This document shows positions 6,157 to 63,998 of a DNA stretch of 64,000 bases, one piece after another (within the stretch, counting starts at the first letter, position 1; each line of letters starts with the position of its first letter). The stretch is from Gelidibacter japonicus (GTDB lineage: Bacteria > Bacteroidota > Bacteroidia > Flavobacteriales > Flavobacteriaceae): NCBI RefSeq assembly GCF_010725055.1, contig NZ_BJKB01000008.1:124001-188000 (forward strand), in the 5' to 3' direction. A program made the position numbers and the translations under genes. The notes below the pieces were generated by a model that did no database searches, was not told where the DNA came from, and saw nothing but the letters and a program-made list of their open reading frames with translations.

Positions 6157-6936
6157 ATGAAATCAATATCAATATTTATTATTACTGCAGTTTTCCTTTT
6201 TAACTCCAATAGTTACGCCAACAAAAAATGGGGCGCTACAGGACATCGTGTTGTAGGGGCCATTGCAGATCAATACACGAGCAATAAAACAAAACGTCAT
6301 CTCAAAAAACTATTAAATCACCAATCCTTAGCCTTCGTATCAACTTTTGCTGATGAAATTAAGGCAGATCCACGTTATAACGAATTTGAATCTTGGCATT
6401 ATGTGAATATGTCACTTGATGAGGATTATGAGTCGTCCAAAAAGAATCCAAAAGGCGACTTGGTAACCGGTATCGCTTTTTGCAAAAAAGTCATTAAAGA
6501 TGATAAGTCTTCAGATGCTGATAAAACCTTCTATTTGAAAATGCTGATCCATTTGGTAGGCGATTTACACCAACCTTTACATATTGGGCGAGAAGAAGAC
6601 CGTGGCGGCAACGATATTAAAGTACAATGGCAATTTAAAGACACTAACCTCCATAGAGTTTGGGACAGTCAAATGATTGAATCCTATAATATGAGTTATA
6701 GTGAATTGGCCGCAAATGCTGAATTTATATCAAAAAAGCAAATCAAGTTTCTTCAACAAGGCTCTGTTATTGATTGGGTGAATTCTACACAAAACTTAAC
6801 CAAAACCATCTACAGCTCGGTCGAGGAAGGAGAAAATTTGCGTTACGCCTATTCCTATGAATATTTGGACATTGCAAGAACCCAATTGCAGATTGCAGGG
6901 ATTAGATTAGCGAAAGTTTTAAACGATTTGTTCTAA
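6157..6936 (+). CDS. secreted S1/P1-type nuclease
   Basis: 259 residues with an N-terminal signal peptide (hydrophobic stretch FIITAVFLFN, cleavage near Ala21) followed by the zinc-nuclease start KKWGATGHRVVGAIA. Zinc ligands of the S1/P1 family are recognisable: the Trp and His of WGATGH, a His in SWHYVN, HLVGDLHQPLH, and the later DTNLHRVWDSQMIE. The enzyme would cleave single-stranded nucleic acid outside the cytoplasm, giving phosphate and nucleosides. It follows the helicase by 12 bases and may share its transcript, although the two functions are unrelated. Confidence 0.92.
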   Translation: MKSISIFIITAVFLFNSNSYANKKWGATGHRVVGAIADQYTSNKTKRHLKKLLNHQSLAFVSTFADEIKADPRYNEFESWHYVNMSLDEDYESSKKNPKGDLVTGIAFCKKVIKDDKSSDADKTFYLKMLIHLVGDLHQPLHIGREEDRGGNDIKVQWQFKDTNLHRVWDSQMIESYNMSYSELAANAEFISKKQIKFLQQGSVIDWVNSTQNLTKTIYSSVEEGENLRYAYSYEYLDIARTQLQIAGIRLAKVLNDLF

Positions 6937-7090
6937 AAATTGTAGCCATTCTTCAGATTGAAATCCTGTCAATCCATAGAACATTCAAGTAAGATTATTT
7001 CGGTAGAATACTATTAAATTTAATATTAGTTGGGATTTTGGCACAACCATTTCAACCTTTTTACATCTAATAGAAAACGAACAATTTATT

Positions 7091-7525
7091 ATGACAAAAA
7101 ACATTCTTATTATTTGTCTATATATCCTAATTTTCAGTTGCAGCTCCGATGATGATAATTCTACTGTCAATCAGAATTGCGGTCTCATTTCTGAAATAGT
7201 TTCCGAAGATGAATTTAATTCAATCATTACTTCAAATTATGAAATAACAGAAGTTGAATTAAATAGGGATTGTCTGGAAATAACATATAGAGCCAGTGGA
7301 TGCGGAACAGAATTTTGGGAAGAGAATTTATATAGTGTAGATGCTTTTTATGCCGTTTTTCCATTACAGAGATATGTCAAAATGGAAGTGATAAATGAAG
7401 AGTTATGTGAAGCTATTTTTCAAAAATCAATTTCTTTTGACCTCACTCCATTTCAAATAAAAACTCAAAGTGAGATACCATTAAATATTGAAGGTTGGAA
7501 CCAACAAATCATTTATCGATATTAG
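7091..7525 (+). CDS. putative lipoprotein, unknown function
   Basis: 144 residues. Residues 1-17 form a lipoprotein signal ending in the lipobox-like IFSC, followed by an Asp-rich stretch (SSDDDNS) common after the lipidated Cys of Bacteroidetes surface lipoproteins. The rest has five cysteines, which could form disulfides outside the cytoplasm. I do not recognise a domain. The gene stands alone, 154 bases after the nuclease and before the convergent tRNA-His. Confidence 0.7.
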   Translation: MTKNILIICLYILIFSCSSDDDNSTVNQNCGLISEIVSEDEFNSIITSNYEITEVELNRDCLEITYRASGCGTEFWEENLYSVDAFYAVFPLQRYVKMEVINEELCEAIFQKSISFDLTPFQIKTQSEIPLNIEGWNQQIIYRY

Positions 7526-7600
7526 GGCTATTATTGGTTTTTTCTCTCCCTAACTTATTGACTTAACAACTAACCAGCCACATTTAAAAAATCAGTGTAC

Positions 7601-7630
7601 AAAAAAAGCCCTCAAATTTCTTTGAAGGCT
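7601..7630 (-). terminator. terminator for tRNA-His
   Basis: Read on the minus strand, AGCCTTCAAA pairs with TTTGAGGGCT (7607-7630; one G-T pair, four-base loop), followed by seven T. It lies just downstream of the tRNA-His gene. Confidence 0.8.
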
Positions 7631-7639
7631 TATATTTTG

Positions 7640-7714
7640 GGTGGAAGACCGGGCTCGAACCGGCGACCCTCGGTACCACAAACCGATGCTCTAACCAACT
7701 GAGCTACAACCACC
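7640..7714 (-). tRNA. tRNA-His (anticodon GTG)
   Basis: The minus strand folds into a cloverleaf with D-arm TAGCTCAGTTGGTTAGAGC, anticodon loop TTGTGGT (GTG, His) closed by TCGGT/ACCGA, and T-arm GCCGG-TTCGAGC-CCGGT. The extra 5' G opposite C73 that marks tRNA-His is present (7714 with 7640). The acceptor stem reads GTGGTTG against CTTCCAC, leaving two adjacent T-T oppositions at pairs 5-68 and 6-67. The anticodon and the extra G make the identity secure despite that. Confidence 0.93.
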
Positions 7715-7790
7715 ATGTAGCCGCATTCTTAAATGCGACTGCAAATGTAATTTATTTACTAATGTTTACAAAGCCTTTTGGTAAAAAAAA

Positions 7791-8507
7791 TTAAACTAAG
7801 TCGAATAAACTTTTAACTGCAGCATACCGTTCTACGGTAAAACCTTCAGCGTGTTCCGTTCCTATCAATCTACCCAAATCTCTCGCTCTGTAGTCAATAC
7901 TATCTGTAAAGTTTTTACTGCTGATTGGTGTTTGGGGCGCTTTGCTTTCGGGATCAAAGAATTGCGTTTTATATGCCGCAACTGCTTCCATTTTTTTATC
8001 CATAAATCCCGACACATCAACCACAATATCCGGCTCAATATTTTTCCATTGAATATAATGGTACACGTATTTTGGTCGCCAATGTTGTTGTTTTTTTCCA
8101 TCCAATTCGGTCTCAATTTTCATCAAGCCACTTAAAAAACAGGCATCACTTACCAATTGACTGCCCTTGGCATGGTCAATATGCCGATCATTGATGGCAT
8201 TGCACAACACCATTTCAGGTTGGTATTTTCTGATCATCCTAATGACTTCCAGTTGATGGGCTTTGTCATTTACGAAAAAACCATCAGCAAAACCCATATT
8301 CTCTCTCACCACAACACCTAGGATTTTTGCACCTTCTGCGGCTTCTGATTTTCTGGTTTCTGCAGTGCCACGCGTCCCCAGCTCACCTCGTGTAAGATCA
8401 ATAATTCCCACCTTTTTACCATGGTGGACTTCCTTCGCGATCGTAGCACCACAACCCAACTCAACGTCGTCAGGGTGAGAACCGATGGCTAAAATGTCTA
8501 ATTTCAT
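7791..8507 (-). CDS. bshB1: bacillithiol biosynthesis deacetylase BshB1
   Basis: 238-residue zinc-dependent PIG-L/LmbE-family deacetylase. Motifs seen: AIGSHPDDVELGCGA at the N-terminus (metal ligands His-Pro-Asp-Asp), a DLTRGELGTRGT segment, the NDRHIDHAKG motif carrying the third ligand, and a C-terminal GTEHAEGF. These match BshB1, which removes the acetyl group from GlcNAc-malate in bacillithiol synthesis. Bacillithiol is the usual low-molecular thiol of this phylum. Single gene, not in an obvious operon with other bsh genes. Confidence 0.92.
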   Translation of the reverse strand: MKLDILAIGSHPDDVELGCGATIAKEVHHGKKVGIIDLTRGELGTRGTAETRKSEAAEGAKILGVVVRENMGFADGFFVNDKAHQLEVIRMIRKYQPEMVLCNAINDRHIDHAKGSQLVSDACFLSGLMKIETELDGKKQQHWRPKYVYHYIQWKNIEPDIVVDVSGFMDKKMEAVAAYKTQFFDPESKAPQTPISSKNFTDSIDYRARDLGRLIGTEHAEGFTVERYAAVKSLFDLV

Positions 8508-8711
8508 CTGTTTATTATTTTATTAAAGGTTAAAAACCTTACTGCTTTATGGTTTCCGATAGTTGTCGAATTATAACCACGAATGACACAAATTAATACG
8601 AATTCATACGTGGATCATAAATTGACAATTCTTATGTTTTTAAATTTCTGAAATGAAACAGGGGTTCCGTCTGTTTTCAAACATTACTGACTTCAATTCC
8701 ATAGTTGCAGT

Positions 8712-9605
8712 TTAATTTTTAATCCAATCGTTTTGTTCTTTTTCGGTCAAAAATGACCACGTCACTACTCTACTTACCTTATTACCTTGGATCATATCCA
8801 ACACCCGAAACTCTGTTGCCCCCAATTTTTTTAATGAGGCTTCCATTGATCTGACATGGCTGACATTTGATACCAGACTTGTAAACCAGTAGCACTGTTT
8901 AGGGAATTGGGAACTTTCATACAAATAATTGTGCAAAAAGGCCTTCTCTCCGCCTGCGTAACACAACTCTTTTGGTGTCCCACTAAAGTTTCTAATTACT
9001 TTATCGCTTTTGTTGCCCAATCCTTTCAATTTCGTTTTGGTGGCATCAAGGGCATCTGCCTGACTTTTAAAAAATGGCGGATTGCAAACAGAAGCAGTAA
9101 ATTTATCTGACGGTCTAAGAATTCCCTTCAAAATATGCTGATAATCCCTTTGATGACGCAATTCAATGACATTTTCAAGATTGTTTTTATCTATAATTTT
9201 TTGGGCAATTTGGAGAGATTTTTCATCAATATCTGAGCCTACAAAACTCCAGTTGTAAATAGAATTCCCCAATAAAGGGTAAATACAGCTGGCACCCACG
9301 CCAATATCCAAAACTTTGACATCCGATTCCAAATGGCTTCGTCTCAATAAATCGGCCAAATGGTGTATGTAATCCGCGCGACTGGGAATTGGTGGACACA
9401 AGTTCTTGTCGGGAAATTCCCAGAATTTCACATCATAATGTGTATACAACAACGCCGTATTCAGGGCCTTTACAGCCTCAGGGTTTGAAAAGTCGATCGT
9501 TTGATTTTGATAGTCATTAACAAAAACATGTGATTTTAAAGCCTCATGGTTTTTTGTAAGCAGCTCAAAATCGTATGAATTAGTGTGAAGGGAGTTTTTA
9601 TGCAA
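8712..9605 (-). CDS. rlmF: 23S rRNA (adenine(1618)-N(6))-methyltransferase
   Basis: 297-residue SAM-dependent methyltransferase. It carries the RlmF-type N-terminus (SLHTNSYDFELL, NPEAVKALNTALL), a SAM-binding region VLDIGVGASCIYPLLG, and the catalytic N6-adenine motif NPPFF. Later SGTPKEL and GGEKAF segments also match the family. It would methylate A1618 of 23S rRNA. The start is TTG (9603-9605); no in-frame ATG exists before the conserved region. Confidence 0.9.
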   Translation of the reverse strand: MHKNSLHTNSYDFELLTKNHEALKSHVFVNDYQNQTIDFSNPEAVKALNTALLYTHYDVKFWEFPDKNLCPPIPSRADYIHHLADLLRRSHLESDVKVLDIGVGASCIYPLLGNSIYNWSFVGSDIDEKSLQIAQKIIDKNNLENVIELRHQRDYQHILKGILRPSDKFTASVCNPPFFKSQADALDATKTKLKGLGNKSDKVIRNFSGTPKELCYAGGEKAFLHNYLYESSQFPKQCYWFTSLVSNVSHVRSMEASLKKLGATEFRVLDMIQGNKVSRVVTWSFLTEKEQNDWIKN

Positions 9606-9648
9606 TTTATTTAAGTTTCTTTGATTCTAATTGTTTCGGTAGCAAGTT

Positions 9649-10824
9649 CTAATTTTGGGTCTGAAGTTTTGAACTTTTAACCGCCTTGATGGCTTGCTCA
9701 ATATCTGCTATCAGATCTTTTTTCGATTCTATCCCCACCGAGAAGCGAATCAAATTATCACTTACACCTATTTTATCTCGCTCTTCCTGGGTCAGTAAAG
9801 CATGTGAGGTTTTATGCGGCGATAGCATCGTACTTTCAACACCTGCCAAACTCATCGACGATTTGATCAATTTCAATTCCTTTTGAAATGCCGTGGCGTC
9901 CAATCCGTCAACCAACTCAAAGGAGAGCATGCCCCCAAATCCTTTCATTTGCGATTTTGCCAAAGCATACTGTGGATGGGTTTTAAGTCCAGGATAAAAC
10001 ACCTGTTTGACGTCTTCATGATTCGATAAAAATTGAGCTAATTTTTGAGCATTTTTATTTTGGGCCTTGACCCGTAAGGCCAAAGTCTTCATACTGCGCT
10101 CCAACATCCAAACGGTCATATCACTCAAACTGCCACCCAAGTTCTTGGCCACATTGAAAATGACTTCCATATGCGATTCACTACAGGCAACCGCACCTGC
10201 CAATATATCAGAATGGCCTCCCAAATATTTTGTGGCGGAATGCATGATAATGTCGATTCCAAAATCGATTGGTGTTTGATTGACAGGACTTGCAAAGGTA
10301 TTATCAATAGTCGTGACAATGTTTTTTGATTTTGCCAAATCGGCCACACCTTTAATATCCGTTATGGTCAACAAGGGGTTGGATGGGGTTTCTATATGAA
10401 TTAGCTTTGTATTCGGTTGGATGGCCGCTTCAAAATCGGCAACCTCGTATCCATCCGTAAACGTAAATTCGATACCGTATTTAGGAAACTCTTCCCTAAT
10501 GAAATTACTGGTACCACCATACAAGGTGTTTTGGACCACAATATGGTCGCCTTGTTTTAAAAAAGCCAAAAATACGGTACTAATGGCTGCCATTCCGCTT
10601 CCAAAAATCATTCCTGCTTCGGCATGCTCCAAGGCTGCTATCTTTTTGGACAAATGTTCTTGGTTTGGCGTGTTAAAATACCGTGGATAACGTTTTACAT
10701 CAACATCGTCAAATTGATATGATGTGGACATATAAATAGGCGACACCGCTCCTTTAAACTGTTCATCCTTGATTTCGCCAACGTGTGTGCAAATGGTGTT
10801 TAATCCGTATTTTGATTTTGACAT
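9649..10824 (-). CDS. PLP-dependent trans-sulfuration enzyme (cystathionine gamma-synthase/lyase family)
   Basis: 391-residue Cys/Met-metabolism PLP enzyme. The Schiff-base lysine lies in HSATKYLGGHSD. Other family marks are ALEHAEAGMIFGSGMAA, the YGGTSNFIREEF phosphate/PLP stacking region, TIDNTFASPVNQTPIDFG, and the C-terminal SLAGVESTMLSPHKTSHA. Cystathionine gamma-synthase, gamma-lyase, beta-lyase and O-acetylhomoserine sulfhydrylase share these motifs, so substrate cannot be fixed. Residue 1 ATG at 10822-10824. It sits 43 bases upstream of rlmF on the same strand, and a link is not obvious. Confidence 0.9.
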   Translation of the reverse strand: MSKSKYGLNTICTHVGEIKDEQFKGAVSPIYMSTSYQFDDVDVKRYPRYFNTPNQEHLSKKIAALEHAEAGMIFGSGMAAISTVFLAFLKQGDHIVVQNTLYGGTSNFIREEFPKYGIEFTFTDGYEVADFEAAIQPNTKLIHIETPSNPLLTITDIKGVADLAKSKNIVTTIDNTFASPVNQTPIDFGIDIIMHSATKYLGGHSDILAGAVACSESHMEVIFNVAKNLGGSLSDMTVWMLERSMKTLALRVKAQNKNAQKLAQFLSNHEDVKQVFYPGLKTHPQYALAKSQMKGFGGMLSFELVDGLDATAFQKELKLIKSSMSLAGVESTMLSPHKTSHALLTQEERDKIGVSDNLIRFSVGIESKKDLIADIEQAIKAVKSSKLQTQN

Positions 10825-55049: not shown

Positions 55050-55123
55050 GGCGAGGTAGCTCAGCTGGTTAGAGCGTCGGATTCATAACCCGGAGGCCTC
55101 GGGTTCAAGTCCCGATCTCGCTA
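55050..55123 (+). tRNA. tRNA-Met (anticodon CAT)
   Basis: Cloverleaf: acceptor GGCGAGG/TCTCGCT (G-T closing pairs at each end), D-arm with GCTC/GAGC, anticodon loop TTCATAA with CAT, and T-arm TCGGG-TTCAAGT-CCCGA. Elongator versus initiator: the closing stem has no three G-C pairs next to the loop, so elongator Met is more likely. A modified tRNA-Ile with CAT is possible. Discriminator A at 55123. Confidence 0.92.
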
Positions 55124-55141
55124 CAGTGTAAATGATGGAAA

Positions 55142-55170: not shown

Positions 55171-55480
55171 ATTTGCTAAAATATTTGTGGTTTTCTCTAC
55201 AACTTATATAAGATGGGATACTTTTGAATTTGAAGATCTAGGTAATGATTATTCATGTACCTATCAATTGATATATAAAATTATGTCTGACGGTAAATTT
55301 AAAGACAAGGTTTACCATTTACGGATCAAAGCTACGTGGAGAGAGGATTTAAGATTAAAAAGCATTACTGAAGAAAGATTATAACGACAAATAGCACATT
55401 TAAAAAAAGGAATCGACGCGAAATACATAAAAGAGTTAATCGAGTTCAAAGTCTGATGCTCTTCGATGAGTAAAATTAAT
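55171..55480. other. spacer between the two tRNA-Met copies
   Basis: 310 bases. A 74-codon frame covers 55160-55384 but would start with TTG inside the terminator hairpin. An inner ATG at 55283 would give 33 residues (MSDGKFKDKVYHLRIKATW...), with no recognised domain. Probably a gene fragment. Not called as a gene. Confidence 0.45.
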
Positions 55481-55642
55481 GGCGAGGTAGTCCGTCTGAA
55501 CGAATTCATTCGGACAGGCTCAGCTGGTTACCCGCCCGTCCCGCCCGCCTGAACGGATTCATTCGGGCAGGAAAGGTACGTTCGGGCGGGGAGCGTCGGA
55601 TTCATAACCCGGAGGCCTCGGGTTCAAGTCCCGATCTGCTAC
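55481..55642 (+). pseudogene. second tRNA-Met copy split by two palindromic inserts
   Basis: Aligned with 55050-55123: GGCGAGGTAG (55481-55490), then 28 inserted bases (55491-55518), CTCAGCTGGTTA (55519-55530), a 60-base insert (55531-55590), and the remainder from GAGCGTCGG (55591). The second insert contains CCTGAACGGATTCATTCGGG and the first the related TCTGAACGAATTCATTCGG. Both are partly palindromic and interrupt the D-arm. The acceptor end has also lost one C (CGATCTGCTA for CGATCTCGCTA). The flank before it (AAAATTAATGGCGAGGTAG) matches the first copy, so a larger segment was duplicated. Not expected to be a working tRNA unless processed. Confidence 0.8.
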
Positions 55643-57641: not shown

Positions 57642-57754
57642 GATAAAGCTTTCCGATTTTCTAAACTTTTATTTGTTATTATGTCTTAAATTATGTACAT
57701 TAGTTCCGATTATATGAAATATTTGTCCGAATATGCAAATTCATTTTTTTGATT

Positions 57755-58903
57755 ATGTATGAAATAAACAACTCAAATATGGAATCGGTAATAAACAAGC
57801 TTATCAACTGTCTTGAAGTAAGGTCTATTTATAAGACAGAAATTGAATTCCAACAGGATGGCAAATCACTGTTAATTGTAATCCTCAAAGGAAGTTGCTC
57901 ATCTTTGACCAAAGAATTATCAGCAATGGTCGCCAAAATATTTCAGGAAGAAACAAATTATCTATACAGGATATTTTCGTTTGAATATGCACTTCAACAA
58001 CTAAAAGAAGACAACTTGTTTTTTGTGCATGGTTGTGTATGGGAAAAACTAATGTATCAGCATCCTGATGAAAAATTAGACAACTTTTACGAATATAGAT
58101 GTTCCGAACAAACACTGAGCCATATACAGTCAGCATTTGAAAAAGAACAAAATAAAATCACAGCTTTTATGGATGGCGCTCTCTTTTTTGTCGAGAAAAA
58201 CAATCTTTGTCATGCCGCTTACATGTTCCATCAATATATCGAATTATGGTTTCGATTCGGTGCATTATTGACTATGGGAAAGGAGCGCAAAAGCCATAGC
58301 ATCAAAGAACTCCAGACGTACATCAGTTCATATTCCCCACACCTCGGAAAACTTTTCAAAACCGAGATAGAAGAAGAACTTAATCTTTTAAAGTTGCTGG
58401 ATGATGCTTATATCACTACACGTTATGAAAACAATTACCATATCAACTTAGAACAAGTTCTCGACATCCAAGAGAAGGCAAAACTAATTGAAACGCTAGT
58501 TTCCAATTTATTTACAGAGAAAATGTCTGCTTGTAAAAAGATTATAAATAAACAAGATTCTTCTGAAAAACAAATGTCGGATACCAATGGCGAATTGATT
58601 TTGGATAAGATAAAAAAACTTACTCAGGAACATTTTTATATTTTAAAACCGCACCCTCATAGGAAAGATATTTTCCACATAAACCTTTTGGCTAATGGCT
58701 ATCTTGAAACGTCCTTTATGATAGCCAACTTATTAAAGGTCTGCGTTATGGCTTTGGAAGCAGATTATGGCCCAAATCATCTTATTAAGGAACCAGAAAA
58801 TAATATAAGTGAAGTTCTTGGGTATGCTCTACAAATGATACCCTATGAGGAGATGGATTTCTTGGATAAGGTTAAGGAGTTGTTAGCGGTTAAGGAACCA
58901 TAG
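57755..58903 (+). CDS. HEPN-domain protein with a repeated C-terminal module
   Basis: 382 residues from the ATG at 57755. Residues 1-110 form an alpha/beta region resembling a degenerate nucleotidyltransferase (ILKGSCSSLTKEL, RIFSFEYALQQLKEDNL), but the GS-D-D catalytic motif is not seen. Residues 134-255 are HEPN-like (CHAAYMFHQYIELWFRFGAL, HSIKEL, DDAYITTRYENNYH). The catalytic Rx4-6H of RNase HEPN domains is not clear. Residues 282-378 repeat in two downstream small genes (see findings). Divergent from an XRE gene. Mechanism unknown. A toxin or defence role is plausible by context only. Confidence 0.75.
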   Translation: MYEINNSNMESVINKLINCLEVRSIYKTEIEFQQDGKSLLIVILKGSCSSLTKELSAMVAKIFQEETNYLYRIFSFEYALQQLKEDNLFFVHGCVWEKLMYQHPDEKLDNFYEYRCSEQTLSHIQSAFEKEQNKITAFMDGALFFVEKNNLCHAAYMFHQYIELWFRFGALLTMGKERKSHSIKELQTYISSYSPHLGKLFKTEIEEELNLLKLLDDAYITTRYENNYHINLEQVLDIQEKAKLIETLVSNLFTEKMSACKKIINKQDSSEKQMSDTNGELILDKIKKLTQEHFYILKPHPHRKDIFHINLLANGYLETSFMIANLLKVCVMALEADYGPNHLIKEPENNISEVLGYALQMIPYEEMDFLDKVKELLAVKEP

Positions 58904-59068
58904 CGTTAACATTTTAAAATGAAAACCATGAAAAACGACGTGTAGATGAACGTTGTCGCGTATTCAATAACCCTTTTTATACTGGTGATGAACTCTTAAA
59001 GTTTATTGAATTTTTCCATTAGATATGGTTGAGATTAAGCCACACAGAAACATATAACTCATAAATAA

Positions 59069-59410
59069 ATGATCATGAAGCACCCTGAAGAAAAACTTAT
59101 AGAAAAACTAAATTATCACAAGACGGACAACACCCCAATCCTAATTCCCCATCTACACTTTAAAGGCAAATACCAACCTTCATATTTTTATGTGGATGAC
59201 CATACTGATTTGTTGCTGACCGTGCGCGCCTTAATTTATCTATCCATGAAAGTTATCGATCCCGAATCCGAAACGGATGACATCTTGGAAAGAAACGAGG
59301 ACGAATACGTTCAGCAAACCTTGAAAATCGCCAATCGTTTATTGCCTTGGGGCGAGGAGGCCTTAATGGATCACATTAACGAGTTTTATAGAGCGCAAAC
59401 AACAATTTAA
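59069..59410 (+). CDS. small protein, paralogue of the HEPN C-terminal module
   Basis: 113 residues, no signal or membrane span. LTVRALIYLSMKVIDPESE, TLKIANRLLPWGEEALMDHIN and the segment ILIPHLHFKGKYQPSYFYVDD align with the HEPN protein's residues 296-378 and with the next gene. A second ATG at 59075 is possible. Function unknown. Confidence 0.7.
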   Translation: MIMKHPEEKLIEKLNYHKTDNTPILIPHLHFKGKYQPSYFYVDDHTDLLLTVRALIYLSMKVIDPESETDDILERNEDEYVQQTLKIANRLLPWGEEALMDHINEFYRAQTTI

Positions 59411-59425
59411 CAAACCTTAATCGTT

Positions 59426-59758
59426 ATGAGAATAAAAAAGAAAGAACTCAAGAAATTAATAAAATCGGCAAAATATAAATTGGATACGTTGCGACCATCG
59501 GACATTCAAAAAGACAAATTCAAACCTTCTTATTTGCAGTTTGAAGGCTACCTCGATTTGTTTTCTACAATCGAAGCCTTAATCAATGTTAGTATCCTTG
59601 CCACACAGGGTGATCCATACTCTCCACCCCATGTTAAGGATCATGGCAGAGACATTCGAAGAACGCTGGAACTGGCCAGTAAATTATTACCATTTGAAGA
59701 AGGTGAATTTTTGGATGATGTCCATGTTATGATGAAGCAATTGGAATCACAACCTTAG
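59426..59758 (+). CDS. small protein, second paralogue of the HEPN C-terminal module
   Basis: 110 residues with a basic N-terminus (RIKKKELKKLIKSAKYKL). Core LDLFSTIEALINVSILATQG and TLELASKLLPFEEGEFLDDVHVM align with the previous gene and the HEPN C-terminus. Starts 15 bases after the previous stop, so the two are one unit. Confidence 0.7.
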   Translation: MRIKKKELKKLIKSAKYKLDTLRPSDIQKDKFKPSYLQFEGYLDLFSTIEALINVSILATQGDPYSPPHVKDHGRDIRRTLELASKLLPFEEGEFLDDVHVMMKQLESQP

Positions 59759-60474: not shown

Positions 60475-61251
60475 ATGCAATTAATAAATACAGAACACAG
60501 TTTTTCATTTTATAATAATCTACTATCAGCCAAAGAACCAGACAACGAATTTGACATTAATCAATTGATTGAAGTTATCAGGTACGGCTATATAAAAAAC
60601 GAAATTCAATCCTTGAGAGGTTTAAATGACAAACAGGAAAAAAACAGACTAAAGCAATCGAAATTACCTTGCGTCACCTTATCTGGCACTTTCGAAAAAA
60701 GAAATAAGCACCATTTACAAGAGCATTCCGGATTAATTCAAATAGACATCGACGACTTAGAAGATTATGATGCTGTTTTCAATACCTTAATTTTAGATGT
60801 TTATACGTTTGTAGCATTCAGAAGCCCAAGTGGGAATGGCATTAAGTTGGTAGTAAAAATAAACCCCTCCATTGACACCCATTTAGAGCAGTTTCTTTCG
60901 CTTGAAAAATATTACTTGGATGAGTATAATATAGAAATAGATAGTGCTTGCAAAGACATTGCGAGATGTATGTTATTATCCTATGATCCTAACATCTATT
61001 GTAATCCATTCTCGGATGTATATGCAGAATTATATATGCCTGAAATTAAAGAAACACCTGAGAAGCACCATAAAGTAAATTATAAGATTGATGTCAATTC
61101 AAATAATGCTATTGATATCATAGAAAACCTAAGCTCAGAAATTGAAAGAAACAACATTGATATTACTGATGGTTATATCAATTGGATAAGAAAGACAACC
61201 GTAAAGAATCATTTCCGCTTGCCTACCATGTTGACTAGCTTGATAAGATAA
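60475..61251 (+). CDS. truncated VirE-N/BT4734-like primase
   Basis: 258 residues. The VirE N-terminal/BT4734-like primase-polymerase region is recognisable: LPCVTLSGTFEKRNKHHLQEHSGLIQIDIDD, FVAFRSPSGNGIKLVVKI and DSACKDIARCMLLSYDP. Full proteins are usually two or three times longer, with a helicase part. The last part, ITDGYINWIRK, is followed by a foreign tail (TTVKNHFRLPTMLTS) where the reading frame runs into antisense DUF6804 DNA. Typical of mobilisable islands. Probably inactive. Confidence 0.75.
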   Translation: MQLINTEHSFSFYNNLLSAKEPDNEFDINQLIEVIRYGYIKNEIQSLRGLNDKQEKNRLKQSKLPCVTLSGTFEKRNKHHLQEHSGLIQIDIDDLEDYDAVFNTLILDVYTFVAFRSPSGNGIKLVVKINPSIDTHLEQFLSLEKYYLDEYNIEIDSACKDIARCMLLSYDPNIYCNPFSDVYAELYMPEIKETPEKHHKVNYKIDVNSNNAIDIIENLSSEIERNNIDITDGYINWIRKTTVKNHFRLPTMLTSLIR

Positions 61252-61374
61252 AATTGAAAAGCCAATTAATCCCGCGAACCTTACAAACTGGTAAAAACCG
61301 TATGCCATATCCAACAAGCATAAAAACATCAATATTGCTAGTAAGAGCTTTATCAAGGTTTCACTTTTACTCAT
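61190..61374 (-). CDS. DUF6804-like membrane protein, 3' end replaced
   Basis: The frame runs 61135-61374 (79 residues), but only 61190-61374 looks original: two or three hydrophobic spans (ETLIKLLLAILMFLCLLDMA, FVRFAGLIGFSILSY) and RQAEMILYGCLS. DUF6804 proteins continue past this with further spans. Here the frame continues into the antisense of the primase gene. Its start overlaps the end of the TerB-like gene by 8 bases, so it is the last gene of the operon. Confidence 0.6.
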
Positions 61375-61903
61375 TTGATTCTTTAAGACTATTCAATATA
61401 TCATCATCTAATTCACTTATCAATCGAAATTCATGCGAGATATGAGTATCAAAAAAGTCATCTTGAAGTCGTGATAAATACGAATCACTAATAATGTCTT
61501 GCTCTAAATAATCCTCAAAGTCAGGATGTTTTTCAAGAATTGGATCATTGTCAATTTTTAATTTCGAACGAATAACTTTGAAAAACTTAATTTCACTATA
61601 CTCAATTACATCATCCGCTTTAATGGTTTCAATCGCAACTTCAATTAATTTCAATTCGTTGGCTTCTGATAGTTCAGATGAGTTAAGTTCATTGAAATAA
61701 CTTTTTAAAAATTGGTGCCCATCTTTATTTATAGCAAGTAACAACATATCCAATTCAGAATTAATATCAATTTCGCCAAAGGTTCTTTTTTCCATGTGTA
61801 ATTTCTTAATCAATTGAATTTCACGCTTATCAATATTACCATCACAAGCCATACAAGAAAACGCAGTCTTTAGTAATAATTTATTAAAGTTTAATGTTTC
61901 CAT
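61367..61903 (-). CDS. TerB-like domain protein
   Basis: 178 residues from the ATG at 61903, one base after the kinase stop. The TerB-like all-helical metal-binding fold shows FNKLLLKTAFSCMACDGNID with its acidic DGNID and a second acidic turn IKADDVIEYSE. The C-terminal 50 residues are acidic. TerB-like domains accompany stress and conflict systems. Precise role unknown. An in-frame TTG at 61924 is also open. Confidence 0.78.
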   Translation of the reverse strand: METLNFNKLLLKTAFSCMACDGNIDKREIQLIKKLHMEKRTFGEIDINSELDMLLLAINKDGHQFLKSYFNELNSSELSEANELKLIEVAIETIKADDVIEYSEIKFFKVIRSKLKIDNDPILEKHPDFEDYLEQDIISDSYLSRLQDDFFDTHISHEFRLISELDDDILNSLKESNE

Positions 61904-61904
61904 A

Positions 61905-63677
61905 TTAATTGTTTTTAAAACCAATTCTTGGTCGTTCGTTAGTATTTTCTGCTAAACCATCCATTTTTGCCTTAATAGCAATATAACTATTCAAATCTTT
62001 GATCTTGATTGAAGATCGTTTACTCTTAATTGTTTCTAATAATATTTCCTTCGAGATTCTGGATCTTAATTTTAACGCTTTTCTTGAAGCTTCATCACAT
62101 AAGAATTTTATATCACTCGATACATAATTTTCTGTTTCTTTGGCCAAAACAGAATAATTCAACCCTATTTCTATAGGTCGATTTTCTAAATAAAGTTTAA
62201 ACATCAACTCACGAGCTTCAAGGTCTGGAGGTGGTAAATATATAAGTTTATCTAACCGTCCCGCTCTCAATATCGCCGGATCAATCGAGTCGGGTCTGTT
62301 GGTCGCTCCGATAATGAACACACCGTCGTCACCACAATTATTCATCTGTGCTAAAAACTCATTTACAGCACTTGTATTCATATGATTAACGTTTGAATTA
62401 TCCCGATTTGGAGCAACTGCATCTAATTCATCAATAAAAATGATGCTAGGGGCATTCTCACGGGCTTCATCAAATATGTTTTTAATATTTTCTTGTGAAG
62501 CGTTTACCCATTTACTTTGTATGTCGGAAGGTTTTAGCTGATAAAAGTTAAAACCTATTTCCTCACCCATTCGTTCTGCAAAAAATGTTTTACCACAACC
62601 TGGTGGACCATAAAGCAACATTCCGTTTGGAATAGTTATACCATATTCAGCATATCTTTCTTTATCATTTAAGGCATCAATAACATCCAATTTGATGGTG
62701 TCTTTCAATTCCTGCATTCCTGCAATTGCTGAAAATCCTTGCCCTTTTTTAATTTTATTAGGTTTTGGATTATTCACTTTTTGGGGTGTTGAAAGTTGTT
62801 TTATTTCCACCTCTCCATTAACTGCTTTAATAAAGTCTTTGGCATTTTTGAAACGATATTCAGTATCTGGTTGTAAAGCCTTTCGAATTATATTTTGAAT
62901 TTGATGGTCTGTAACGGAGGTAAACTTTAAAGTCTTTTTTCGTTCTTCTATTACAGCATCTTCCAACTTTGTCGAATCTACTTTGTATTTTGAGATTTCG
63001 ACAAACCAAGGCGGCAGACCTTCTAATAAATGGTAGTATAGTGCACCAACCGAAAATATATCACTTTGAGTTGAAAACACTTTGTTAAAAGCCTCATTAG
63101 CTTGGTAAAACGGATTTAATCCATCTTTTAAAAAGTCCTTGTTAGACTGACTTAAAAATCGGGCATAGCCAAAATCAATGATTTTAGGAATCACAACCTT
63201 ACCTGAAAGATCTAACATTACGTTCAAATTCGTAATGTCATTGTGTATAATTGGGTTATCAAGCGAGTGCAAATAATTCACCCCATTTAAAACACCTAAA
63301 ATAATATCTTTTGCATCATATGTGTTTAGCACCTCCTCTCTTTTTAGCTTATCAGCCAACGTCTCACCACTGATGAAGTCTAGAATTACGTAGGCATACT
63401 TTTGATTTTGTATAAGCAGCTCTCCACATTCTATGTAATTAGCCAAATTAGGATGATTGATTTGTTTTAGAACTTCAATCTCTAAAACATCATCATTATC
63501 ATCAAATTGGGTTCTATCCAATTTTGAGTAGAGAAACAACTTTAATAATTTGGTTTTCCCATTTTGGTCTTTTACACGATAGGTTTCTGCATAACTCCCT
63601 TTTTTAAGGAAGAAAGTGACCTTATACTTGTTGTCAATTCTTTGATCTTTGGATAGTATTTGATTATTCTTACTCAT
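61905..63677 (-). CDS. Ser/Thr-kinase-like domain fused to an AAA+ ATPase
   Basis: 590 residues. Residues 15-290 form an eukaryotic-like kinase fold: Gly-rich FFLKKGSYAETYRV, Lys46 in LLKLF, an HND-type catalytic loop (IIHNDITNLNVML, His145 to Asn152, Asp147) and DFG Asp168 in IIDFGYARF. Residues 315-590 are an AAA+ domain of the VCP/FtsH type: Walker A GPPGCGKTFFAERM (357-364), Walker B IIFIDELDAVAP (412-420) and second-region-of-homology arginines in RAGRLDKL. The domains look complete. A Lys/Asn-rich linker (295-312) joins them. Start abuts the upstream stop codon. Likely a regulated unfoldase or motor. Confidence 0.88.
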   Translation of the reverse strand: MSKNNQILSKDQRIDNKYKVTFFLKKGSYAETYRVKDQNGKTKLLKLFLYSKLDRTQFDDNDDVLEIEVLKQINHPNLANYIECGELLIQNQKYAYVILDFISGETLADKLKREEVLNTYDAKDIILGVLNGVNYLHSLDNPIIHNDITNLNVMLDLSGKVVIPKIIDFGYARFLSQSNKDFLKDGLNPFYQANEAFNKVFSTQSDIFSVGALYYHLLEGLPPWFVEISKYKVDSTKLEDAVIEERKKTLKFTSVTDHQIQNIIRKALQPDTEYRFKNAKDFIKAVNGEVEIKQLSTPQKVNNPKPNKIKKGQGFSAIAGMQELKDTIKLDVIDALNDKERYAEYGITIPNGMLLYGPPGCGKTFFAERMGEEIGFNFYQLKPSDIQSKWVNASQENIKNIFDEARENAPSIIFIDELDAVAPNRDNSNVNHMNTSAVNEFLAQMNNCGDDGVFIIGATNRPDSIDPAILRAGRLDKLIYLPPPDLEARELMFKLYLENRPIEIGLNYSVLAKETENYVSSDIKFLCDEASRKALKLRSRISKEILLETIKSKRSSIKIKDLNSYIAIKAKMDGLAENTNERPRIGFKNN

Positions 63678-63998
63678 CTATAAAGCTTCTTCAGGGTTAC
63701 TAGGGCGCGTGTTGAAATTCCCATTTTCTTGCAAAATCAATTGATATTCCAAAATATTATTGCTCAAAATTTGTGGATTATCTTTCCCAAAATCTTCGTT
63801 AGCTGTAAAACCACCTTTCAATTTGCCACCATTCATTTCCTTTTCAGGATTCCAACCTTTTCCATAGTAAAAGAATGTCTGATAAGTGCCATTTGTAAAT
63901 GAAAAGGTATAACTACTATCTGAAGTGATATAAGCATGTGTTACCACACTACCATTTTTTTTGATAATGACTACAACGTCGGAGTTACTTGTTCTCAC
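63678..63998 (-). CDS. uncharacterised protein, 5' end outside window
   Basis: The last 106 residues (minus strand) of a larger protein: SDVVVIIKKNGSVVTHAYI, FFYYGKGWNPEKEMNGGKLK, GFTANEDFG and the C-terminus NGNFNTRPSNPEEAL. The frame is open beyond the window, and the GTG at 63998 is only the first usable codon. I recall similar C-terminal segments beside Bacteroidetes Ser/Thr kinase genes. Function unknown. Its stop and the kinase ATG abut, so the pair is an operon. Confidence 0.65.
   Translation of the reverse strand: MRTSNSDVVVIIKKNGSVVTHAYITSDSSYTFSFTNGTYQTFFYYGKGWNPEKEMNGGKLKGGFTANEDFGKDNPQILSNNILEYQLILQENGNFNTRPSNPEEAL

Follow-up and report, generated by a model that had tools for sequence, protein, structure and literature searches.

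Remnant in Gelidibacter japonicus of a mobile operon for a putative envelope-linked Hsp70 machine with a kinase-AAA+ fusion

The locus and its central gene

The window analyzed here, a 64,000-nucleotide stretch of the Gelidibacter japonicus contig NZ_BJKB01000008.1 (positions 124,001 to 188,000), ends in a compact reverse-strand cluster whose central gene encodes a protein kinase joined to an AAA+ ATPase (Table 1). The initial annotation had read these as a single protein in a tightly packed operon. Matches to the Pfam Pkinase and AAA (1.4e-38, aa 353-482) models bear out the fusion, and the open reading frame coordinates agree with the spacing described: the stop of the lipoprotein-like gene (63678) abuts the start of the fusion gene, one base separates the fusion's stop from the ATG of the TerB-like gene, and the DUF6804 and TerB-like frames overlap by 8 bases. 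The start of the lipoprotein-like product has a hydrophobic stretch (aa 4-24) and a Cys at the lipobox place, and beyond its gene, outside the window, lies a truncated Hsp70 gene.

Table 1. Features of the window discussed in the text
Feature	Position	Strand	Evidence
tRNA-Met, landing site of a variable island	55050..55124	+	tRNA and congener comparison
47-bp piece of the tRNA gene, att-like	55072..55118	+	Exact repeat
Second exact copy of the 47-bp piece, att-like	55591..55637	+	Exact repeat
BT4734-like (VirE-N) gene, truncated	60475..61251	+	Pfam, congener comparison
DUF6804 membrane protein, truncated, 79-aa ORF	61135..61374	-	Pfam 3.2e-15
TerB-like protein, ATG 61903 (ORF open from TTG 61924)	61367..61903	-	Pfam TerB 0.0082
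Kinase-AAA+ fusion, full length, 590 aa, ATG start	61905..63677	-	ORF, Pfam, relatives
AAA+ domain and start of lid, aa 353-536, CDC48/FtsH-like	62070..62621	-	Pfam AAA, NCBIfam, residues
Kinase domain, aa 26-277	62847..63602	-	Pfam Pkinase 1.3e-34
Lipoprotein-like protein, C-terminal part of 226 aa	63678..64000	-	Continues past window (L023 9679-10359)

The kinase domain of the window protein has the residue set of an active kinase, namely K46, E66, N152, D168-F-G, and H145-N146-D147, the HND catalytic loop that had been pointed out from the sequence. Its AAA+ domain carries the Walker A residues K363 and T364, the Walker B residues D416 and E417, sensor-1 N460, R474, and an aromatic pore residue at position 390. 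We found 25 relatives, two of which (L047 and L054) are cut by contig edges; L024 and L025, judged from the gene map to duplicate L038 and L052, were left out of the counts. Among the 29 family members compared, K46, E66, and H145 are kept throughout, D147 in 24, and D168 in 27, whereas K363, T364, D416, E417, N460, and R474 are intact in every one; residue 390 is always W, Y, or F, and R471 is kept in 28. The loss of the catalytic Asp in five of the 29, against the constancy of six AAA+ residues, indicates that the family can do without kinase catalysis. Judged by these residues, kinase activity is not universal in it, and the notion that the kinase is necessarily catalytic was dropped. Mutation of Asp147 would thus be informative only for members with an intact kinase. 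The NCBIfam CDC48 (4.6e-54) and FtsH (3.7e-52) models match the homologue at locus L030 far under their cut-offs, so the AAA+ half is kin to these named families rather than a member of them. The AAA+ genes at L026-L029 (38-41% identical) were not accepted as the same system, as they lie in other contexts and no Hsp70 match was seen in the stretches read. Separately, a Thermococcus plasmid encodes a kinase and AAA pair with a PP2C phosphatase and no annotated Hsp70 within the 16 kb read.

The complete operon in homologous loci

The initial annotation had likened a unit of four genes, with kinase-AAA+, TerB-like, and DUF6804-like products among them, to NTP-dependent systems of conflict or stress type. 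A recurring, tightly packed NTP-driven unit beside defense genes does exist, but these four genes are not the whole of it. In homologues, the order is a helical protein with a J-like start, a GrpE-like protein, Hsp70, a lipoprotein/SH3 protein, kinase-AAA+, a TerB-like protein, and DUF6804. Hsp70 lies upstream of the fusion in 31 of 32 loci, the remaining one beginning at a contig edge, and a GrpE-like gene is found in 26.

The Hsp70 of L030 is a divergent member of the Pfam HSP70 family (1.1e-62) that scores 223 bits with the DnaK model, against a cut-off of 822.55, and is hence not DnaK itself; the phosphate motifs are retained in 31 of the 32 Hsp70s. The product of the second gene spans the membrane and contains a coiled coil. 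Compared end to end with 30 GrpE sequences, its profile gave P 2.8e-4 (reversed control 0.16, DnaJ control 0.58), with P 6e-4 against 16 sequences and P 0.022 against one GrpE only. Its top-ranked solved-structure match was a chain of a GrpE-DnaK model at E 0.031, in a fold search with no match at E ≤0.001 that started from a poor predicted model (pLDDT 69.9, pTM 0.32). At E values up to 1, Pfam GrpE matched 10 of 20 members (best 7e-4), DASH_Dam1 13, and DUF7584 12 of the same 20; the L030 protein scored 16.8 bits, under the GrpE gathering score of 25.8, which leaves it outside that family, and a plain GrpE profile search across the loci returned nothing significant (best E 0.82). Taken together, the fold and profile comparisons suggest that this protein is GrpE-like.

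For the helical protein, likeness to DnaJ is limited to helices I-II at its start (22 aligned columns, P 2.5e-4; reversed control 0.14, GrpE control 0.15). The HPD motif occurs in none of 25 N-terminal stretches, so that no J-domain proper can be assigned, and Foldseek did not bring out the likeness, returning helical-repeat proteins with none at E ≤0.001. The spare reversed controls gave 0.072 for the GrpE-like protein against DnaJ and 0.014 for the helical start against GrpE. Searching solved structures by sequence with the GrpE-like, TerB-like, and helical proteins yielded coiled coils or marginal matches; for the helical protein, a designed CTPR repeat protein was matched at 7.6e-6. The tails of the helical protein are swapped between species.

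The downstream partners are less constant. The window TerB-like protein scores 16.9 bits with Pfam TerB, under the gathering score of 24.4, and is therefore described as TerB-like rather than filed in the family. The affinity proposed for it at the outset holds at this weaker level: 18 of the 19 homologues likewise match weakly, at best with 1.9e-4, and a plasmid homologue is annotated as "TerB family tellurite resistance protein." TerB is missing from seven of the 31 loci with downstream sequence (L054, whose contig ends inside the kinase, was dropped from this count) and thus looks like an accessory. DUF6804 is likewise not universal, and in L039 it occurs with the lipoprotein as a separate pair. 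Membrane spans or starts resembling export signals are present in several partners. The operon proteins scanned showed neither a recognizable nuclease nor a toxin domain, and the effector is accordingly not obvious.

Against this arrangement the window copy appears as a remnant. Homology of its DUF6804 extends no further than aa 62 out of some 103 (position 61189), that of the BT4734-like gene, which matches 239 aa of a 500-aa congener copy, ends at 61191, and the two truncated genes abut at about 61190. At the other end, the front of the operon was lost at a multi-copy repeat within the Hsp70 gene: the genome lacks the C-terminal part of the helical protein as well as the beginning of the Hsp70 NBD, and there is no room for a GrpE-like gene beside the fragments. 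The kinase-AAA+, TerB-like, and lipoprotein reading frames are whole; given the missing helical, Hsp70, GrpE-like, and DUF6804 parts, the copy probably no longer functions as a system. Being broken, it is a poor choice for experiments, for which the homologues offer intact operons that can be tested directly, among them those of Maribacter sp. MMG018 (L030, 2275-10616) and Leeuwenhoekiella (L034).

Distribution and genomic setting

The kinase-AAA+ fusion was returned in seven of 395 genomes of the phylum Bacteroidota and in none of eight congeners. The Hsp70 of the operon was returned in six of the 395, all among the same seven, an overlap with a chance probability of about 1e-12 on the lists as returned. 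The tally of six is a lower bound, since the Hsp70 of G310, a genome without the fusion, was not returned, even though a direct comparison of its ORF with the profile gives a match. A plasmid-borne copy of the operon was found, and the tree of the fusion family mixes classes; read from these data, the operon is mobile and has spread between classes. Carriage by phages was considered and rejected: three viral contigs had matches to the AAA part only, and none of 172 phage records covered 80% of the query.

In the window the operon lies in a tRNA-Met hotspot. At least three of seven congeners have type I restriction enzymes at this hotspot, as seen in a scan of 10 proteins chosen from five of the seven loci (L161 and L163 were left out). 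BREX adjoins the full operon in one relative. PADLOC matches among the proteins flanking the operon include type I restriction, BrxL, PglZ, ThsB, and AbiE; these were pooled over loci, with the BREX genes of L065 included and no formal enrichment computed, and come from 150 of 157 listed proteins with a control of 44 (from 165 flanking ORFs of ≥100 aa, eight shorter than 110 aa and seven others were left out). A 5-methylcytosine restriction component in L065 is part of the neighboring BREX cluster. Of the more distant sister cassettes, one is close to zorA, one is carried by a Tn7-like element, and one adjoins rdrB and a dptF fragment. The initial annotation had asked whether the arrangement recurs and keeps company with defense islands; the gene order does recur, with BREX and type I restriction nearby, and zorA and rdrB are neighbors of the distant sisters.

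Possible function and competing explanations

We slightly favor the view that the window contains the damaged end of a mobile operon for a dedicated envelope-linked Hsp70 machine, whose most likely role would be defense against phages or other mobile elements. In such a machine, Hsp70 with its J-like helical partner and the membrane-spanning GrpE-like factor would bind a protein that is foreign or becomes exposed on infection. The CDC48/FtsH-like AAA+ ring could then receive this client upon nucleotide exchange, a step that the GrpE-like coiled coil would couple to the envelope, and would thread and unfold it. The kinase or pseudokinase domain may position or gate this ring, and the TerB-like, lipoprotein/SH3, and DUF6804 proteins may anchor the complex at the membrane. 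The target would be a folded foreign protein that is inactivated or sensed, rather than nucleic acid.

Because Hsp70, GrpE-like factors, unfoldases, and TerB-like proteins are all stress-related families, and membrane spans or starts resembling export signals occur in several partners, the operon might instead be a horizontally spread second Hsp70 machine that mends proteins of the envelope or cytoplasm under metal, redox, or temperature stress, found in islands simply as accessory genes are, with no anti-invader role. We regard this as distinctly less probable, though still a serious contender, as it sits poorly with defense-gene neighbors in several independent settings, with the patchy occurrence, and with tail swapping in the helical protein, which is unusual for a housekeeping chaperone. 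Service to the mobile element itself, either in superinfection or plasmid exclusion or as an addiction-like module with kinase-AAA+ and Hsp70 restraining a membrane protein, would account for copies on plasmids and in the Tn7-like element, and the lipoprotein-DUF6804 pair of L039 is what an entry-exclusion module might look like. Yet no toxin domain was recognized, 10 of the 25 relatives are on contigs longer than 200 kb, and viral records offer AAA-part matches only, which makes this reading unlikely. That the kinase-AAA+, TerB, and DUF6804 genes are neighbors in the window by chance, an idea that rearrangement of this copy at both ends could have encouraged, is refuted by the same gene order in many genera and the co-inheritance of Hsp70 and the fusion, leaving it a negligible probability.

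A bolder form of the defense reading, which we hold tentatively, is that a complete Hsp70 machine has been turned into an immune device spanning Bacteroidota and Proteobacteria, where it would lie beside a RADAR gene in one E. coli genome. Phage proteins would be recognized by their folding state and destroyed or disabled by transfer to an AAA+ unfoldase whose attached kinase is becoming a pseudokinase. What most defense systems detect is nucleic acid, a small signal, or a single phage protein. If the proposal is right, the folding state of proteins would itself be an immune target, and the repeated joint travel of kinase, unfoldase, TerB-like, and membrane proteins would be explained.

Comparison with known systems

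The initial annotation knew the gene combination under no name, and this stands: we found no published name for the Hsp70/kinase-AAA+ gene set in the sources searched, and no dedicated PADLOC match for the operon. PADLOC matches are limited to single domains. IetA of IetAS resembles the AAA+ half (1.8e-34), and the MADS kinase mad6 and the PD-T4-6 kinases the kinase half; none of the 25 models listed, of 38, covers both halves, which points to generic domain similarity. Eight partner proteins were scanned, and only the coiled-coil protein matched, weakly; neither the TerB-like protein nor DUF6804 did. Shango is a defense operon with a TerB-domain protein (SngA), a helicase, and an ATPase. The operon here shares with it a TerB-like protein and an ATPase but has no helicase among its recurring genes, and no Sng model is among the same 25 of 38 families.

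The proteobacterial GrpE-like/Hsp70/AAA+ cassettes L082-L087, for which we found no name, are sisters of the operon. Their five plasmid copies encode an Hsp70 of the same family, matching along 509 to 833 of the 841 positions, have a protein of 114-130 aa directly upstream of Hsp70, and have a short GrpE-like part. A related AAA+ gene follows in three of the five and in E. coli. Their NPF-start protein is read as J-like, with a weak DnaJ profile test (P 0.037), and L082-L086 have no TerB-like match. A degenerate kinase at the N-terminus of the sister AAA+ was considered and discarded (P 0.38; controls 0.30 and 0.53).

Among described systems, CoCoNuTs combine McrB/McrC-like proteins with, in several types, HEPN nucleases, and encode NBD/SBD units resembling Hsp70, to which some types add TerY-P modules that contain kinases (PMC11090510). 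Hsp70-like units and, for those types, kinases are found in both. The CoCoNuT units, however, have degenerate ATP motifs (PMC11090510), whereas those of the Hsp70 here are mostly intact, as noted above; "GrpE" and "TerB" do not occur in the main text of that paper, a general Pfam scan placed no McrB/McrC-like domain in those recurring genes of our operon that were scanned, and HEPN nucleases are not among the recurring genes. Another parallel is offered by the GTPase-centered GAP1-N2 conflict operons, which, as described by Kaur et al. 2020 (PMC7159879), carry their own HSP70, GrpE, and DnaJ/TPR protein and occur alongside FNIII-repeat proteins, chiefly in actinobacteria and firmicutes. Both operons join HSP70 to GrpE or a GrpE-like factor and to a DnaJ, J-like, or TPR-bearing protein; the operon described here differs in that no GTPase was recognized among its recurring genes, in using the kinase-AAA+ fusion as its motor, and in adding TerB-like and membrane components.

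Organization and likely core of the operon

Our ORF map of the window bears out the gene calls and spacings of the initial annotation, as well as its single protein joining a kinase to an AAA+ domain (590 aa; Pfam kinase, 1.3e-34; AAA, 1.4e-38), which is followed 3' by a TerB-like and then a DUF6804-like gene. The genome measures 4.67 Mb, and the window is close to one end of its contig C8, which continues for 2,347 more bases. These carry the rest of the gene upstream of kinase-AAA+, for a 226-aa protein that starts like a lipoprotein, and, further on, the code for the last 593 aa of an Hsp70 (82% identity to residues 249 to 841 of a Maribacter protein).

A scan of the species-genome collection returned 25 kinase-AAA+ relatives from several Bacteroidota classes, as judged by record title and tree label; these, the window, one plasmid copy, and five further genomes make up the 32 loci that were mapped with profiles. 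The usual order is a helical protein with an N-terminal NPYRI, a GrpE-like protein, Hsp70, a lipoprotein, an SH3 protein or neither, kinase-AAA+, TerB-like, and DUF6804. Hsp70 lies upstream of kinase-AAA+ on the same strand in 31/32 loci, the exception (L047) having a match that starts at contig base 32. The GrpE-like gene is present in 26/32, and five of the six loci lacking it reach the contig end there; in L051, it is truly absent and Hsp70 is shortened. TerB-like is found in 24 of the 31 loci with downstream sequence (L079, one of the seven without it, has just 530 bases left) and DUF6804 in 24 of 32, on the opposite strand in L078 and before the kinase in three Flavobacterium/Algoriella loci. 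Two loci carry additional genes: a second DUF6804 with a lipoprotein stands alone as a pair next to a complete operon of the SH3 type, and two Hsp70 genes flank a lipoprotein gene, the second with degenerate nucleotide-binding motifs (see table).

A compact set found via TerB in genome G310 combines an Hsp70 (profile, 1.2e-115) with TerB-like and DUF6804 proteins, a 115-aa GrpE-like protein 42% identical to the protein upstream of Hsp70 in Pseudomonas L082, and a large protein that has a hydrophobic segment close to its end. Kinase-AAA+ is absent from its 7-kb contig, and the Bacteroidota profiles do not reach its GrpE-like and first proteins. Because of this set and the order seen across the 32 loci, the constant core of the system seems to be its Hsp70 part. 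Among 395 genomes from the phylum, the kinase-AAA+ profile at 1e-70 was returned in seven (G475 with the AAA+ half only) and Hsp70 at 1e-100 in six, all within those seven, an overlap with a chance probability of ~1e-12 as computed for the lists as returned. The tally of six is a lower bound, the Hsp70 of G310 having been missed by this search. Five of six TerB matches fall in the six Hsp70 genomes, and the sixth is G310. The full-length fusion occurs in 3/98 near relatives and 0/8 genomes of the same genus.

Coordinates of features in the window and in related loci
Feature	Sequence	Positions	Strand
Kinase-AAA+ fusion	Window	61905-63677	-
tRNA-Met direct repeat, exact, 47 bp	Window	55072-55118; 55591-55637	
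77% copy of tRNA-Met upstream flank	Window	55439-55490	
HEPN-domain protein (384 aa), small ORFs (113 and 110 aa)	Window	57749-59758	
End of DUF6804 homology (aa 62)	Window	61189	
End of BT4734-like homology (239 aa)	Window	61191	opposite to DUF6804
Second DUF6804 and lipoprotein	L039	13653-14658	opposite to operon
Two Hsp70 genes, lipoprotein between	L045	1035-10613	
Compact set of G310	L176	104-5655	
Kinase, AAA+ (ATP-binding protein), PP2C phosphatase in tandem	L066, Thermococcus peptonophilus plasmid	6341-9968	

Domain composition of the proteins

The Hsp70 matches the Pfam HSP70 nucleotide-binding domain (1.1e-62), and its phosphate motifs are intact in 31/32 cases, the exception being the second Hsp70 of L045. 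The second protein of the operon has a single membrane span (127-149) with long helices on either side, and the coiled coil before the span would probably be periplasmic. Three lines weakly suggest that its C-terminal domain is GrpE-like: a Pfam GrpE match in the right register (other Pfam families match an equal or greater number of members), a GrpE-type match at Foldseek rank 1 (E, 0.031), and a profile comparison with GrpE using reversed and DnaJ controls; a plain GrpE profile search of the loci gave no significant match. The helical protein yields an all-helical model with helical-repeat proteins as weak best matches, and in profile comparison it is similar to J-domain helices I-II over its first 30 residues; HPD is absent from all 25 starts. 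Across 19 copies, its median identity is 0.70 over residues 1-375 and 0.27 beyond, with the tails past residue 450 falling into six groups (sizes 7, 5, 4, 1, 1, and 1), the second of which has a CFI-box in L034 (Leeuwenhoekiella).

In kinase-AAA+, Walker A, Walker B, sensor 1, and R474 are intact in 29/29 copies, pore residue 390 is aromatic in all, and R471 is kept in 28/29, but the kinase catalytic Asp is substituted in 5/29; thus, the unfoldase is the constant activity. The substitution is to Glu in L065, L076, and L077, where the remaining kinase residues are intact, and is joined by other kinase losses in L078 and L080. The kinase fold, to judge from these sequences, can apparently serve without the usual catalytic Asp.

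Mobility, neighborhood, and the window copy

The window copy of the operon is a remnant. Similarity in its truncated Hsp70 begins at about residue 224, where a 127-bp sequence starts that has five more copies in the assembly (four of 127 bp, one of 119 bp), all at contig ends, and that presumably resembles the end of an IS21-type element. Besides a weak partial match, a search of the same genome for the Hsp70 N-terminus found only the genome's DnaK-like gene, at 34% identity. Residues 1-148 encoded by the operon's first gene are found on another contig (C29), at whose end they run into a related-looking end sequence, and the two contig ends leave no space for the GrpE-like gene beside these fragments. 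On the other side, a BT4734-like gene matches a 500-aa copy from a same-genus genome for 239 aa, and this match ends 2 bases from the end of DUF6804 homology; therefore, two truncated genes meet at one junction.

The operon lies within an island behind tRNA-Met, where the repeats are traces of repeated integration. The site is present in all eight same-genus genomes; in the seven stretches compared (G001 and G003-G008), the kinase-AAA+, TerB, and lipoprotein of the window are absent from all. Of the window's other island ORFs, five recur in G006 and one each in G008 and G003; none occurs in G001, G004, G005, or G007. A scan of 10 proteins from this site found type I restriction enzymes in three genomes (G004, G008, and G006) and type II-like matches in two (G003 and G007). 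The HEPN-domain protein and its two small ORFs also form a trio in G006 (L164).

The tree of kinase-AAA+ places copies from Cyclobacteriaceae and Saprospiraceae with a Flavobacteriaceae one (97/95) amid other Flavobacteriaceae, and a Chitinophaga-labeled MAG with Flavobacterium/Algoriella (100/98). In the Haliscomenobacter plasmid copy, brxL, pglZ, and a 5-methylcytosine restriction component directly follow the operon. A PADLOC scan at 1e-15 of 150 of the 157 listed flanking proteins, drawn from 29 loci, returned 138 families, the 25 listed including subunits of type I systems (methylase, restriction, and specificity), BrxL and PglZ (both carried by plasmid locus L065), ThsB, AbiEi/ii, and type II methylases. 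As a control, 44 proteins encoded in the window's first 54 kb gave 20 families, chiefly DpdF and further models that we take to be helicases; these pooled counts, with hits unassigned to loci, are not a formal enrichment test.

Wider relatives and relationship to known systems

The Hsp70 profile (841 positions) also matches plasmid proteins of Pseudomonas (5-837), Vibrio (8-825), Aminobacter (8-708), Polaromonas (8-615), and Aeromonas (9-517, in a 545-aa version). Upstream of each of these five lies a 114-130-aa protein, matched by the GrpE-like profile in two (2e-4 and 3e-4), and in three plasmids the downstream AAA+ genes resemble the AAA+ half of kinase-AAA+. Proteins starting with NPF in the proteobacterial sets are tentatively read as J-like, with a weak P of 0.037 vs DnaJ. 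The Polaromonas plasmid has zorA ~4 kb away and that of Aeromonas tnsD/tnsE; in Escherichia coli HeN100, a similar set adjoins rdrB (RADAR) and a fragment of dptF, with an IS3 in between. Any DNA match was found in 2/5,426 E. coli genomes, with query coverages of 65% and 13%. These examples were picked by hand among 251 plasmid records and the results of a single E. coli search and do not constitute a rate. Elsewhere, an archaeal plasmid (L066) pairs a kinase with an AAA+ protein, and same-family genomes (L026-L029) have a 431-446-aa AAA+ protein, 38-41% identical to the AAA+ half, in a different context, followed by or found with a 408-419-aa gene of TPR-like appearance.

The alternative is an accessory stress role for a horizontally spread second Hsp70 machine without any function against invaders; with restriction and BrxL/PglZ genes among the neighbors, we regard this as rather unlikely. 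We infer instead, at somewhat better than even confidence, a mobile chaperone-driven system, most likely directed against phages or plasmids. Such an Hsp70-unfoldase system would have as its targets proteins located at the membrane or close to it.

Among the matches listed in the open-licence literature, we found no description of this gene set. Precedents for chaperone-centered conflict operons are available: the GAP1-N2 class contains HSP70, GrpE, and DnaJ/TPR (PMC7159879), CoCoNuTs include Hsp70-like units (PMC11090510), and phage protection by a bacterial NLR-like protein requires DnaJ co-chaperone activity (PMC12169576). The passages on these three systems do not describe the present gene set. 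In light of these precedents, the present operon would be a variant of the chaperone-centered conflict systems.
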